From Thermoplasmata archaeon (GTDB lineage: Archaea > Thermoplasmatota > Thermoplasmata > Thermoplasmatales > Thermoplasmataceae): a stretch of 48,357 nt of DNA. Below are positions 7,147 through 12,438 of the stretch, piece after piece; the first letter of the stretch is position 1, and each line of letters opens with the position of its first letter. The position numbers and the translations under genes were made by a program. The stretch is taken from positions 1 to 48,357 of the forward strand of contig JAKAAT010000006.1 in NCBI GenBank assembly GCA_021802205.1, written 5' to 3'. A model generated the notes under the pieces. That model was not told the origin of the DNA and did no database searches. It worked only from the letters and a program-made list of their open reading frames with translations.

Positions 7147-8565
7147 TTATTCCTCTGTAGATGGTATTGAATGTTCTACAGGTTTACTTTGCTCTATATC
7201 CCTATCATCAATTTCCGGTGTCAGCCTTGTGCCCTTTGTTTCCGGTCCAATATATTGACCTATACCCACTATTACAGCTCCGATCATCAAAAGTACCGCC
7301 GTTGAAAACCATATATTTGTGGGAGTATCTATTGATGAAAATAAATACTGATGCATCAATGGCACATATATGGAAAACCAGCCACCTATAAATATTCCAG
7401 AAGAATAGCCAAAGCCGACTCCAGAGGATCTCATGGACGTTTTAAATCTCTCTGACAGGTATACAGGAACTATGCCCCATGGTGCCTGTGTTACAAATCC
7501 CACCGTTAATACAGATATATACGTTAACATGACATTTCCTGTCTCTGCACCATAAAATATTCCGTAAAATGCCGGAACCGCAAGTATCAATGTCAGTACG
7601 GCCCAGATTAATAGCAATCTTCTCCTTCCCACCTTCTGGGAAAGCGCGCCGAAGAATATTGCGCCTATGAATGCAGAAACAAGAGAATACGTATATATTG
7701 TTGTTGCACTTCCAAATGATAGAATGCTCGGCTTTGATTCAAGTATTGTGGGAACAAAGGCAAATAATGAATATGCAAAGAAAAACATACCGGTCATAAA
7801 TATCATAACCTGAAAGAAATCCTTTCTATGCTCTTTCCTGAAAAGATCTGTGAGTGGTGTTTTTCTTATTTTTTTCTCTTTTTTAAGATTATTAAATGCC
7901 GGTGTATCATTCATTGTTAATCTTACAACTAATGCTATGAAAACCGGTATCAACGTTGTTAAAAATAAATATCTCCAAGCATATGCCTTTATTGCTGCCA
8001 AACCAAAATAGCCAGTAAATATTGCAACAATTGCTGCAGCTAACAATGCACCAAACGAAAATCCTCCCTGCACTACACCGCTTATCAATCCCCTGAACTT
8101 CAGCGGTGTCCACTCCATCACGAAAGGATGGCCTGCAGCATACTCACCACCAGCAAAGGTTCCAACTCCCATTCTTATTAAAACAAACAAAACAAATGCA
8201 AATATACCTACACTTGCAAAAGTCGGCAATGCCGAGGTTAATGTACTCACAATTCCAAGCCCCAGTATTGTTATAATTAGGTCCTTTTTCCTGCCTATCT
8301 TATCGCCCATGTTACCAAAAATTGCCGATCCCAGTGGCCTGAAGATAATTGTCAACGAATATGCAAATATTATCGTAAATGTTCCCAGTAACGCAGTCGA
8401 TGGTGGTAGCAAAACATAGGCCAGTATTGGTGCAGTTGTTAATATCATTGTTAAATCAAACGCATCAAGCAAAAATCCAAAAAACTGCGATGTTGTTGCC
8501 TTTGCAGATTCAGCCCCAAAATGTTCGACTCTACCTGTCAGTGCCTGTTTTTCATTAACGTCCAT
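7147..8565 (-). CDS. MFS transporter, metabolite:H+ symporter (MHS)-like
   Basis: A 472-residue MFS protein with 12 predicted helices. The N-terminal half carries [22 protein letters not shown], the classic RPLG...GxxxDxxGRR/K signature of the MHS family (osmolyte, dicarboxylate and aromatic-acid symporters). The conserved [14 protein letters not shown] segment in TM4-5 also fits the sugar/carboxylate-proton symporters. A basic central loop ([14 protein letters not shown]) divides the halves. The hydrophilic tail of about 40 residues ends with EHSIPSTEE. Substrate is likely a small organic acid or similar, but this is inferred. It stands alone, with its own AT-rich promoter in the divergent region ending at 8790. 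Confidence 0.88.
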
Positions 8566-8790: not shown

Positions 8791-10185
8791 ATGTCATTTT
8801 TACAGGATATAAAATCATCAATTATAAGTGAGGAGGATGATACCTATATTTCTAAAATACTGGAAGATAGAATCAAAATAAAAAGCTTTACAGTTCCTGA
8901 TTATCTATATGTAACTGATTTGATAAACCCGGTGCACTCATATTTTTCTAGGAAATATCCGGATATTGCCATACCCGAAAGCCTGAATTCAAGAATGAAG
9001 TACGGGGAAGAAGTGCACTTTCTGGCCAGGCAATGGTTTGAACGTATACCTGGATTTTCCGGTTCTGAAATTATTCTTACTGCAACACAGATAGGTTTGA
9101 ATGTTGTTGGCAGGGCGGATTTCATGATTTATGATTCTATTGTAGAATTTAAAACTAAAAATGTTGACAGAGTAAACATTGAAAATTTATACAGTATTTA
9201 CCGTTCGGATCTGGAGCAGTTGCTTTTCTATGCAGCAATGAATAGAAATTTTACGCAGGATAATTTCCTTGTATTTTTTACTGAAGGCAAATTCCACGTT
9301 TACCGTATATCCATTAAAGACCTTGGTGCAATAGAAAATGAAATGGTATTCAGATTTTCACTAATAAAAAGAGGAATAGAGAACGGAGATATAAGTGATT
9401 TTCCCAGATGTTCATACTTCGGATATGGGTGCCAGTTTTCCGAGGCTGGTGTTTGTATGTGTCATTCATTGCGGCCGGTAGAATCCTCATGGGCAAGAAA
9501 TGTGGCAACCATTGTTGAGGATAATGAAATGGAATCTCTTCTTTCATCGATATATACAGGGGATGTAGTGAATTTAGACCTGAGATTTTATGATCTTATC
9601 TACCCGAGAAAGTATTACCATAAAATCATCGGAGATTCCAGGAATTCGGATACCGGTGCATCTATACCCTCCTCATACTATGAAAAAAACAATGTTAAAT
9701 TCTTTATGATAGATTCCATAAATGGATCGGCACTCAGTGCAAGCGGGAGTGAAATTTCTGAAATAAATAAGATTTCAACGCTTCCCCTTTACGGGGACGA
9801 CAAGTATATTATTAAAAATATGTATGATGAAAATTCTATAGTCCCCTATCTACTCAAAATTAACAATTCTGTATATCCCGGTAGATTACCTGATACATAC
9901 TACTCTGAACTGGCAATAATGTGTGCAAGGAGAAATAGGAGGGAGGGAGTTTTAATAATAGTGTACCCGAGGCTTGGCAATATTGTCGTTGCAAGAGATA
10001 TTTATTTTGACACAGATAAAATTATAAACATTTGCAATAGAACTATTTCGGAAATAAGAGAGGCAGTTGCAACCCGAAATCCAGACAATCTAGACCTTTG
10101 CCCAGAATTCGCAATAAAATCCTGCGATTTTTCACTGTGCAGCTGTAAAAAAGAAATAATAAAGGGACGCGAAAAGAATCAGTAA
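8791..10185 (+). CDS. Cas4/RecB-like PD-(D/E)XK nuclease with two Cys clusters; apparent internal duplication
   Basis: A 464-residue protein. The N-terminal half has the complete RecB/Cas4 nuclease motif set: G72-x3-H76, GRAD with D110, E119-F-K121, and Q143-x3-Y147. These are followed by Cys207, 214, 222 and 224, positioned like the C-terminal Fe-S cysteines of Cas4. The C-terminal half repeats this order in degraded form: GDD at 335-337, IVPYLLK at 350-356 (the E of ExK replaced by P), SELAIMCAR at 372-380, then Cys437, 445, 450 and 452. Both Cys sets end in C-x-C. I infer one active nuclease domain and one inactive copy with two metal clusters. No cas gene or repeat array is nearby, so a repair or host-defence nuclease is more likely than CRISPR adaptation. 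Confidence 0.65.
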   Translation: MSFLQDIKSSIISEEDDTYISKILEDRIKIKSFTVPDYLYVTDLINPVHSYFSRKYPDIAIPESLNSRMKYGEEVHFLARQWFERIPGFSGSEIILTATQIGLNVVGRADFMIYDSIVEFKTKNVDRVNIENLYSIYRSDLEQLLFYAAMNRNFTQDNFLVFFTEGKFHVYRISIKDLGAIENEMVFRFSLIKRGIENGDISDFPRCSYFGYGCQFSEAGVCMCHSLRPVESSWARNVATIVEDNEMESLLSSIYTGDVVNLDLRFYDLIYPRKYYHKIIGDSRNSDTGASIPSSYYEKNNVKFFMIDSINGSALSASGSEISEINKISTLPLYGDDKYIIKNMYDENSIVPYLLKINNSVYPGRLPDTYYSELAIMCARRNRREGVLIIVYPRLGNIVVARDIYFDTDKIINICNRTISEIREAVATRNPDNLDLCPEFAIKSCDFSLCSCKKEIIKGREKNQ

Positions 10186-10187
10186 GG

Positions 10188-10457
10188 TTATCCGTAGATA
10201 TAGCTTACCCCCTTTTCAGGGTATTTAAAGTCAAGCGCGCCGAACGGACATGCATAGAGTGCAGCACCACATTCCAGACATCTTTCATAATGAACTATTA
10301 TTCCATTCTCCTTATCATCTTCATATGTGCCTGCCGGGCATACTTTTATGCATGGTTTATCTATACATTTCTTGCATATATCTGTATTTACAGTTATATG
10401 GCTTGTATTACCAACCTCATTTTTATTCAATCCTAACCTTTTAATTAGCTCCATCAT
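10188..10457 (-). CDS. fixX: FixX-like ferredoxin partner of ETF:quinone oxidoreductase
   Basis: An 89-residue ferredoxin-like protein matching FixX: CIKVCPAGTYEDD, then RCLECG, and the C-terminal YPEKGVSYIYG tail typical of the family. Cys28, 31, 36 and 40 form a full first cluster motif. The second motif has Cys60, 63 and 70 but Ala66 stands where a third Cys of CxxCxxCxxxCP would be. It overlaps fixC by four bases (ATGA), so the two are translationally coupled. A strong AAGGTGAT lies just upstream, which suits the second ATG (10454) as well as the first. It should carry electrons between the FAD of FixC and the membrane quinone. Confidence 0.9.
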   Translation of the reverse strand: MMELIKRLGLNKNEVGNTSHITVNTDICKKCIDKPCIKVCPAGTYEDDKENGIIVHYERCLECGAALYACPFGALDFKYPEKGVSYIYG

Positions 10458-11719
10458 ATCACCTTTAACATATCTTCTATAAGTGTATAATATCCGATGC
10501 CGTTCTTTTTAACCTCATCACGCATAACATCTTTTATGTTCTCTCTGGGATTATCCGTAACAGAAAACATTCTTTCCATTATACCAGCCATCATTTTTGG
10601 ATAGGCATCAAAAGTTCTTTCATTGCCAAACAGCGTTGATATCCTTGAGGCGGCCTTCATATCCTTCAGTATGAAGCTATCCTCCAGCATCTGTTCATAG
10701 ATGAATGTGTCCCTATAATCACCGGAATCGAATATTTTTTTAGCCGCCTCACCTGCCAGCCTGCCCGATTCTATTGCATTATCCATACCACGAATGGTAA
10801 ATCCATCATTGATCAGGAATCCAGCAGCATCACCGGTAACCATTAAATTGTCCGCATATCTGGGAGGAAGGCTGTCAAACCGGTAAAATGGTATTAAATG
10901 TGCAGAATATTCAAGTAGTTTTCCTTCTATTCCGAGTTTTTCCCTGAAATCCTCTATTAACTCAAAGGCCTTCTCCTTATGCTTTTCAAGTGAGTCCAGC
11001 TTCAGTGTGAGTCCTATGGATGTAGTTTCTTTATTTGTGTATGAGAAACCACCGCCTTTTATATCCCCAGAAAGCCCGAGAATGGTTCTTGCCTCACCGT
11101 AAGTATTTTCAGTTTTTTTGTCTATAATTTCCTTTACACCTACCATGAACTGTCTCGGCATAAAATCCGGGTTATTTTCAAGTTTTTCAACGGGCTGCAT
11201 TGAAAACTGTTTTTCCTTTACAAGTCCAAGATATCTGGATGCAAAGGCTGCTGCTCCATCGCTTTCTATTAGGAGCGGTGTTCTTATATCCCCCCTATCG
11301 CTTCTTAAAACCAGGCCACCATCCTCCCGGTCAATTCCGCTGACTAATGTGGAATATGATACTGGAACGCCCATATTTTCTGCTTCCGATGCAAACCAGG
11401 TATCAAATTTTGATCTGAGTATGGAATAACTGTTCTCTGTCTCTTTATTTTCAAACGAAAAACTTATTTTCTTCTCTTCTGTGTAAATTTCAAACGTTTC
11501 TTTCTTTATGGGAAGTTCCAGAGGAGCATCCCTGAATCTATTTCCCAGTAGCTTTTCAAGAGAATGAATATACATCCTGCCACCGGAAACATTTTTTGAT
11601 CCGGAACGTTCACCACGCTCCAGAACTATAACTGAAAGCCCCTTATTAGCAGCAGTAATTGCTGCTGAAATTCCGGCGAGGCCTCCGCCCATTATTGCAA
11701 CATCAACATCATAGTCCAT
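10454..11719 (-). CDS. fixC: FixC-like electron transfer flavoprotein:quinone oxidoreductase
   Basis: A 421-residue FAD protein of the geranylgeranyl reductase / FixC superfamily. The dinucleotide-binding motif GGGLAG is at residues 11-16, the second FAD signature VTGDAAGFLINDG near residue 285, and RGMDNAIESGRLAGEAAK follows as in ETF-QO proteins. With FixX it forms the electron exit for ETF reduced by acyl-CoA dehydrogenases; the ETF subunits FixA/FixB are not in this window. A TATA-like TTAAATATATTG (minus strand, centre about 11740) lies about 21 bases before the ATG, so fixCX is probably a leaderless two-gene operon. A geranylgeranyl reductase is a less likely alternative because of the adjacent fixX. 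Confidence 0.9.
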   Translation of the reverse strand: MDYDVDVAIMGGGLAGISAAITAANKGLSVIVLERGERSGSKNVSGGRMYIHSLEKLLGNRFRDAPLELPIKKETFEIYTEEKKISFSFENKETENSYSILRSKFDTWFASEAENMGVPVSYSTLVSGIDREDGGLVLRSDRGDIRTPLLIESDGAAAFASRYLGLVKEKQFSMQPVEKLENNPDFMPRQFMVGVKEIIDKKTENTYGEARTILGLSGDIKGGGFSYTNKETTSIGLTLKLDSLEKHKEKAFELIEDFREKLGIEGKLLEYSAHLIPFYRFDSLPPRYADNLMVTGDAAGFLINDGFTIRGMDNAIESGRLAGEAAKKIFDSGDYRDTFIYEQMLEDSFILKDMKAASRISTLFGNERTFDAYPKMMAGIMERMFSVTDNPRENIKDVMRDEVKKNGIGYYTLIEDMLKVI

Positions 11720-11820: not shown

Positions 11821-12438
11821 TTAACCTGTAATAAGTGATTTCCACACATCCTTCTCCGTTTTTTTCCTCCTTTTGAGATAGCCCACCCAGTAATCGTTTA
11901 TAAACTTTACAGGAACAGTGCCGTTGTAAACCCTGTACGAGCTATCCCTGGCATACATATATTCAATATCATGCAGTATTATATCCTTGATAGTCGTTTC
12001 CTTCATAATATAATAGCCGTTATTCTCCCTGTCGTTGAGTATATAGAGAAGTTTCTTCCTGTTCCTGTTGAAGTCTATATATTTCAGTATTTCATTTCTT
12101 GTTTCCCGTGAAAGCTGGGTACCTATATCCATATCCCTGTGAATCATATCATACAGACTTGCTTTTCCTATCTTCCGTTCATCAAGTGTGAGTTTCATTA
12201 TTTCAAACATGCCATCACTGGAGCTCACAATTTTTATGTATCTATAATCCTTATTTCCCATTCTTATTTTTAAATCTATATCGCTATCGCGGTAAACCTT
12301 TATTACTGATATACGTTCAGGAAATGCATCGAATAGGTTTATTACCATGGCATACACAGGTTTGTCATAATCGTCAATGCCATTAAAATTTTTTTTCAGT
12401 TTTTTGATATTGCCTGCCTTAAAAACTTCGGCTCTCAT
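11821..12438 (-). CDS. protein of unknown function, 205 aa
   Basis: I do not recognise the family. The protein is soluble, basic and rich in aromatic residues, without membrane helices, cysteines or a clear nucleotide motif. It has a central helical region (LSRETRNEILKYIDFNR) and a lysine/arginine-rich C-terminus (YLKRRKKTEKDVW), which could bind nucleic acid, but this is conjecture. TATA-like CATATAAATATAT (centre about 12463) lies 25 bases before the ATG, so it is expressed as a leaderless single gene. Codon use resembles its neighbours, which argues for a real gene. Confidence 0.6.
   Translation of the reverse strand: MRAEVFKAGNIKKLKKNFNGIDDYDKPVYAMVINLFDAFPERISVIKVYRDSDIDLKIRMGNKDYRYIKIVSSSDGMFEIMKLTLDERKIGKASLYDMIHRDMDIGTQLSRETRNEILKYIDFNRNRKKLLYILNDRENNGYYIMKETTIKDIILHDIEYMYARDSSYRVYNGTVPVKFINDYWVGYLKRRKKTEKDVWKSLITG

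Follow-up and report, generated by a model that had tools for sequence, protein, structure and literature searches.

A tandem RecB/Cas4-type protein of Thermoplasmatota pairs a predicted active nuclease half with a pseudonuclease half

Described relatives and the gene

DNA machines repeatedly pair an active with a dead nuclease fold, the two often sitting on separate subunits; the nuclease-like domain of RecC next to RecB, for example, brings active and inactive nuclease folds into one machine. Cas4 proteins, to which the gene reported here is related, keep their catalytic motifs together with four conserved cysteines (PMC5704561, in the part available). The Cas4 protein Sso0001 is a 5'-3' exonuclease on single-stranded DNA with a 4Fe-4S cluster, and the N-terminal cysteine of the cluster is common to Cas4, Csa1 and AddB (PMC3466216, in part). 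In TTV1, an inactivated Cas4 became a DNA-binding nucleocapsid protein (PMC4625639, in part). The steps of archaeal DNA-end processing were called historically unclear by a 2020 review (PMC7690668, in part).

The window, i.e., the whole stretch of 48,357 nucleotides that was analysed, belongs to a Ferroplasma-like genome, the source assembly comprising 1.75 Mb in 105 contigs with a completeness of 84.6% and a contamination of 4.05%. An open reading frame with an ATG start at 8791-10185 (+) encodes a 464-aa tandem PD-(D/E)XK protein. All residues cited in an earlier note on this DNA are in place, namely G72-x3-H76, GRAD (107-110), EFK (119-121), Q143-x3-Y147, Cys207/214/222/224, GDD (335-337), IVPYLLK (350-356), SELAIMCAR (372-380) and Cys437/445/450/452. 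At E ≤ 1, Pfam assigns the window protein to no nuclease family, and no other Pfam domain was found within its 464 aa. Among 25 homologues, 12 match PDDEXK_1 (Pfam, best 9e-8) and 11 match TIGR00372 (cas4; NCBIfam, best 5.5e-6), both at E ≤ 1, with cut-offs absent from the NCBIfam output. By sequence, profile A2 retrieves only two solved relatives at E ≤ 0.1, PDB 4ic1 (6.5e-5) and PDB 4r5q (0.0069). Neither a description of the tandem form nor a report on the activity of any family member was found in the literature searched; the family may appear in the supplements of PMC5704561. A second gene copy in the window's assembly (G000:C60:4557-5936, L015) lies on a contig that is 99.9% identical to another species (G004) across 4392 bases, and is most likely contamination from a co-occurring Ferroplasma rather than a paralogue.

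Conservation was tallied over 70 loci, comprising the window, 12 near relatives, two further loci of the same family (L021 and L024), one locus of family f31 (L095), two DPANN records (L050 and L052) and 52 class-level loci; in other terms, 65 of the 66 class-level carriers plus G001, G003, G013, L050 and L052. The tally omits G290 (L041), which has the same residues by eye, as well as repeat loci of the same records, the contaminant L015, partial matches and further f15 carriers. Sixty-seven of the 70 loci span both halves, and the remaining three are truncated by the end of a contig.

The two halves and their cysteine clusters

The N half (residues 34-235; 8890-9495, +) is a predicted active nuclease domain on the basis of structure prediction and conservation. 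It combines a predicted PD-(D/E)XK fold with a D...ExK...QxxxY active site: D110 of GRAD (9109-9120, +) is Asp in 68/68 rows with a residue at this position (2 gaps), Glu and Lys of the catalytic ExK, E119-F-K121 (9145-9153, +), are kept in 68/68 rows (2 gaps), and both residues of Q143-x3-Y147 (9217-9231, +) in 69/69 rows (1 gap). Judged from these motifs and from the model, the protein is of the PD-(D/E)XK, RecB/Cas4 type.

The C half (residues 236-464; 9496-10182, +) is a pseudonuclease domain and a homologue of the N half, as indicated by profiles and Foldseek. Within it, P352-Y-L-L-K356 (9844-9858, +) and SELAIMCAR (9904-9930, +) are the counterparts of the ExK site and the QxxxY helix, respectively, by hhalign and the 70-locus tally, and hhalign pairs L354-L355-K356 with E119-F-K121. 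The earlier note had observed that the C half lacks the catalytic Glu, and this is borne out across the family: the L354 column holds Glu in 1/70 loci (L095), and L067 has a Glu one position later, beside the Lys. The QxxxY columns hold Gln in 7/70 loci and Tyr in 0/70. The GDD at 335-337, taken in the earlier note as a repeat of GRAD, does not hold up as a conserved motif, since its columns vary among the 70 loci; hhalign instead sets D110 opposite P332, whose column is acidic in 8/70. By residue tally over the 70 loci, an active site is thus absent from the C half. The K356 column is basic throughout, 34 loci having Lys and 36 having Arg. This invariance, together with the E-x-K in the C half of L095, the Glu of L067 and the residual Gln, would favour a continuing part of the C half in catalysis, with its Lys/Arg and metal site completing a composite active site, yet the loss of Glu in 69/70 loci, the rarely acidic Asp column, the complete loss of Tyr and an N half that is complete alone render such a site highly improbable. 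The natural variation of the 70 loci shows what the dead half needs: a basic residue and the Cys cluster, not catalysis.

That the halves are duplicates had been inferred by eye, and profile alignment with controls confirms it. With profiles from 25 homologues, hhalign aligns the N half to the C half over 175 columns with a probability of 99.6% (E 5.3e-24, score 152.7), whereas the scores of reversed profiles are 12.7 and 13.9 and the highest of 100 column shuffles reaches 27.7, ruling out chance self-similarity. An overlapping second set of 13 rows gives 97.1% (E 5.1e-11), and 70-row profiles of both halves give 99.7% (E 1.1e-25). BLASTP of the window sequence against itself yields no significant self-match (E 3.2), and the duplication is therefore not provable from one sequence. 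The two halves have a common motif order, DLxxPxxxY, then PxExK or PxLxK, then LEQLxxY or xxELxxxC, followed in both by two strands, a long helix and the Cys cluster. The opening motif pair, which the earlier note did not mention, consists of D43-L-I-N-P47 (8917-8931, +) at the repeat start of the N half and its counterpart D268-L-I-Y-P272 (9592-9606, +) in the C half. Against the CRISPR Cas4 of 12 relatives, alignment is weak for the N half, at 35.9% (E 3.8e-4; 0.1% with the reversed control), while the C half reaches 4.8%, as compared with 99.7% for half versus half; the halves are thus closer to each other than to Cas4, which fits a duplication inside the family.

An AlphaFold2 model of the full-length protein, built from 13 sequences (pLDDT 81.9, pTM 0.83), has 4ic1 (Cas4 SSO0001) as its best Foldseek match (E 1.2e-5), a modest match with TM-scores of 0.29 by query and 0.62 by target and an rmsd of 10.7; MGME1 and RecE also match at E ≤ 0.001, lambda exonuclease at E 1.3e-3, and Exo5 is among the weaker matches. 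Modelled alone with moderate confidence (pLDDT 70.1, pTM 0.68), the C half again places SSO0001 (4ic1) on top (E 1.1e-3, probability 1.00, TM 0.41/0.44, rmsd 12.5), with MGME1, lambda exonuclease, the Argonaute-associated Cas4 ACE1 and the Pcal_0546 Cas4 as next best matches; Cas4, MGME1 and lambda exonuclease fill ranks 1-8, with probabilities of 0.91-1.00 and E values between 1.1e-3 and 1.7e-2. The C half alone thus matches PD-(D/E)XK nucleases, but no C-half match passes E 0.001 and the TM-scores are low, so that the structure backs the similarity known from the profiles and does not replace it. An unrelated fold of the C half is ruled out by the half-half profile match together with Foldseek on the C half. 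The tandem of an active and an inactive nuclease proposed in the earlier note is accordingly backed by profiles, conservation and structure prediction, the activity of the N half being predicted.

Each half carries its own Cys cluster, and the alignment of 70 loci supports both as conserved four-Cys sites. In cluster 1, C207-x6-C214-x7-C222-x-C224 (9409-9462, +), all four Cys are kept in 69/69 rows with a residue, and the spacing is found in 66/70 loci. In cluster 2, C437-x7-C445-x4-C450-x-C452 (10099-10146, +), C437, C445 and C450 are present in 70/70 loci and C452 in 54/70; of the 16 loci without Cys452, 14 still have at least four tail Cys, some of them far downstream, and C-half tails with at least four Cys amount to 68/70. 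Ten loci without Cys452 follow an alternative plan, C-x4-C-x2-C-x5-C; eight of these group in a single clade (support 1.0), L095 branches elsewhere and L126 is outside the tree sample, pointing to perhaps two events rather than ten. Both clusters probably bind metal, to judge from these patterns, with Fe-S and Zn alike compatible. All four Cys of each cluster lie C-terminal to their domain, and a Cys anywhere at residues 36-60 is found in 1/70 loci (L050, a Pacearchaeota record), three of the 70 being without that region. Because the N-terminal cluster Cys is missing in nearly all family members, the protein is not a Cas4 proper: the label "Cas4-like" used earlier fits the fold and the active site and fails as a family name, with that Cys missing in 69/70 loci.

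Distribution, selection and neighbourhood

Among near genomes, 13/61 carry the gene, including 9/10 of the same genus, its own genome counted. A class search with L013 as query found it in 66/300 genomes, and a phylum search with the A2 profile in 33/389; within family f15, 84/103 genomes are carriers (32/36 of the more complete ones). Ferroplasma acidarmanus Fer1 and Ferroplasmaceae UBA567 are among the named relatives (12 loci out of 82 pattern matches), and two DPANN records carry a family member. The protein is not peculiar to the window, the family being spread over Thermoplasmatota and present in two DPANN records. In a FastTree tree (midpoint root, 68 rows), the nine sequences of the genus group together (support 0.863), and the two DPANN sequences are placed amid Thermoplasmatales sequences at low support values (0.374 to 0.76); the DPANN copies may reflect transfer or deep ancestry. 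A deep-branching f31 member, L095:4150-5445 (+), retains E-x-K in its C half and is a possible intermediate between an active and a dead domain.

Between the window and its three closest relatives, dN/dS is 0.02-0.05 for the N half and 0.035-0.06 for the C half, where dS is computable; for two more relatives, the N half has 0.06-0.07 and the C half no value, because dS is saturated. Values of 0.02-0.07 were thus computable in 7/10 half-comparisons, with dS near saturation, and dN is higher in the dead half in 5/5 comparisons. The sequences clearly indicate purifying selection on both halves where computable.

Frames of 1010-1226 aa raised the candidate of a fusion to a larger protein; the extra stretch in L070/L071 overlaps a conserved opposite-strand gene and is therefore read as spurious. 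As for a single-domain ancestor of the tandem, the phylum search returned, on a contig of G325 (L094:484-2176, -), one 227-aa single-domain Cas4-like protein with a canonical-looking Cys plan, whose gene overlaps a same-strand Rad51-family gene (Pfam Rad51, E 1.6e-30) and adjoins an ORF resembling, by eye, a uracil-DNA glycosylase with an intein; this arrangement suggests a nuclease-recombinase pair.

The gene order in the genus is PRTase, nuclease gene, then convergent ferredoxin-like and FAD-oxidoreductase genes, the oxidoreductase being one that we take to be FixC-like. In the window, the ferredoxin-like and FAD oxidoreductase genes occupy 10188-11719 (-), and an MFS transporter gene (7147-8565, -) lies between PRTase and nuclease; in 6/6 other genus loci compared, the PRTase-nuclease gap is only 34-50 bases. 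A 205-aa protein encoded at 11821-12438 (-) belongs to no Pfam or PADLOC family, and its relatives stand beside the locus in 7/13 compared loci, the window included. The Ferroplasma-like G008 (99% complete) gave no match to the nuclease gene in whole-genome searches. There, the genes lying downstream of the FixC-like one are present, ABC-like genes (by eye) adjoin them and the contig breaks off some 180 bases on, the ferredoxin-like and FAD oxidoreductase genes not being found at the matching place, near the contig end. Because the contig ends near the expected place, the absence of the nuclease gene rests on the whole-genome searches, with an assembly gap possible; given G008 and the patchy distribution, the gene may be dispensable.

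Across 26 loci, of which 20 come from f15 and f30 genomes (Pfam names from L059 only), the repeated neighbours are PRPP synthetase (17), FAD oxidoreductase (16), acyl-CoA dehydrogenase (15) and GNAT (13). The wider window holds translation genes encoding eIF2-alpha, EF-1A-type and EF-2-type proteins and an alanyl-type tRNA synthetase. These, and the presence of DXO and influenza PA endonucleases among the weaker C-half fold matches, might point to a nuclease that acts on RNA, or on some other nucleotide substrate, and whose second half is a pseudo-domain for binding RNA, but the nearest solved relatives are DNA exonucleases and most of the repeated neighbours seen in the other large family have metabolic functions, and we consider this improbable. 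No repair or replication partner was recognised adjoining the gene, and no helicase was found fused to the protein (Pfam, 464 aa) or among the identified neighbours; since no such partner was recognised nearby, the pathway is a guess.

As the earlier note had it, no cas gene lies nearby, none being found among the scanned window proteins and identified neighbours by Pfam or PADLOC. Across 61 genomes, Cas1 is found in 34 (10/13 carriers versus 24/48 non-carriers), Cas4 (PF01930) in 46 and NurA in 38, including 11/13 carriers and not the window's genome; none of these distributions marks a partner of the gene, and a replacement of NurA is ruled out by its co-occurrence in 11/13 carriers. An accessory role in CRISPR spacer acquisition, with the halves replacing the Cas4/Csa1 pair, is very unlikely: cas1 and Cas4 (PF01930) were found neither in the window's assembly (84.6% complete) nor in G007 (96% complete), both carriers, while G008 has Cas1 but no match to the gene and no cas gene is found among the identified neighbours. 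What speaks for it is the Cas4-like fold and active site, the higher share of Cas1 among carriers, and the finding that type I-A adaptation in Sulfolobus islandicus requires each of two paralogous Cas4-like proteins (PMC5704561, in part).

Could the gene instead encode a stand-alone anti-virus or anti-plasmid nuclease, patchily kept by mobile-element pressure? Its patchy presence (13/61 near genomes, 33/389 in the phylum) with apparent absence in G008 of the genus would fit, and some DPANN solo-Cas4 genes adjoin restriction-modification genes (PMC5704561, in part). At E ≤ 1, PADLOC Cas4 models match up to 11/25 members (best 1.5e-6), and DruK matches 2/25. However, among eight window proteins the PRTase alone has a PADLOC match, a weak one (ShosT, E 1.5e-5), and the neighbours are translation and metabolic genes. 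The gene is present in 84/103 f15 genomes and is under strong purifying selection. Pattern scans of viral contigs and tblastn searches of phages and plasmids with the window protein as query found no relative, and an element-borne gene is rejected on these collections, in which distant relatives could be missed. Defence is thus an unlikely, if conceivable, role.

Proposed role and comparison with known systems

Collectively, we favour, somewhat above even confidence, a chromosomal two-copy RecB/Cas4-type nuclease whose predicted active N half and DNA-gripping pseudonuclease half would serve DNA-end or single-stranded DNA processing. At the level of sequence, the alignments demonstrate the tandem architecture and the constraint on both halves. 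In the mechanism that we propose, the N half would act as a Mg/Mn-dependent nuclease on single-stranded DNA or DNA ends, and the C half would grip the DNA, turning its retained basic residue toward the phosphates and fixing path or polarity. A four-Cys metal site may pin each half in the manner of a staple. The role is most likely DNA end or flap processing in ordinary chromosome maintenance, not CRISPR adaptation; of the "repair or defence" suggested earlier, the neighbourhoods and the lack of copies in the collections of phages, plasmids and viruses that were searched point, if indirectly, to maintenance.

More tentatively, with a chance that we put at roughly one in three, the proteins may form an unnamed archaeal family in which the duplication predates the spread through Thermoplasmatota and some DPANN archaea, each domain has its entire metal cluster on the C-terminal flank, and the metal-bearing pseudonuclease steers DNA to the first copy, for DNA-end processing beside NurA. 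If true, this would represent a one-chain counterpart of two-subunit machines. That one gene holds both folds lets the role of a Cys cluster without adjacent catalysis be examined directly; the protein is also a further candidate among the enzymes that process DNA ends in archaea.

RecC and RecB are separate subunits that work with helicases, and are not known to have an internal duplication such as that within the 464-aa protein. The "iron-staple" nucleases AddB, Dna2 and Exo5 likewise join a RecB-type nuclease to a Cys metal site (putative here), whereas here no helicase domain was found, the staple Cys before the domain is absent and the domain is in tandem. The Cas4 and Csa1 pair of type I-A CRISPR also brings two related RecB-type domains together, in a suggested complex (PMC5704561, in part); unlike that pair, the present protein is a single polypeptide, one of its halves is inactive, and no cas genes were found beside it. 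TTV1 TP1 is likewise a Cas4-type domain without catalytic residues in a DNA-binding role (proposed here), yet it is a viral structural protein, encoded by a split gene without fusion to an active copy (PMC4625639, in part). Finally, Cas4 and solo-Cas4 proteins (Sso0001, 4ic1; Pcal_0546, 4r5q) share with our protein the fold, the active-site order and a C-terminal Cys cluster. Cas4 has one nuclease domain and an N-terminal fourth Cys (PMC3466216, in part), whereas here there are two domains, one of them dead, with clusters wholly C-terminal, and the C half departs from the Cas4 rule of kept catalytic motifs (PMC5704561, in part).
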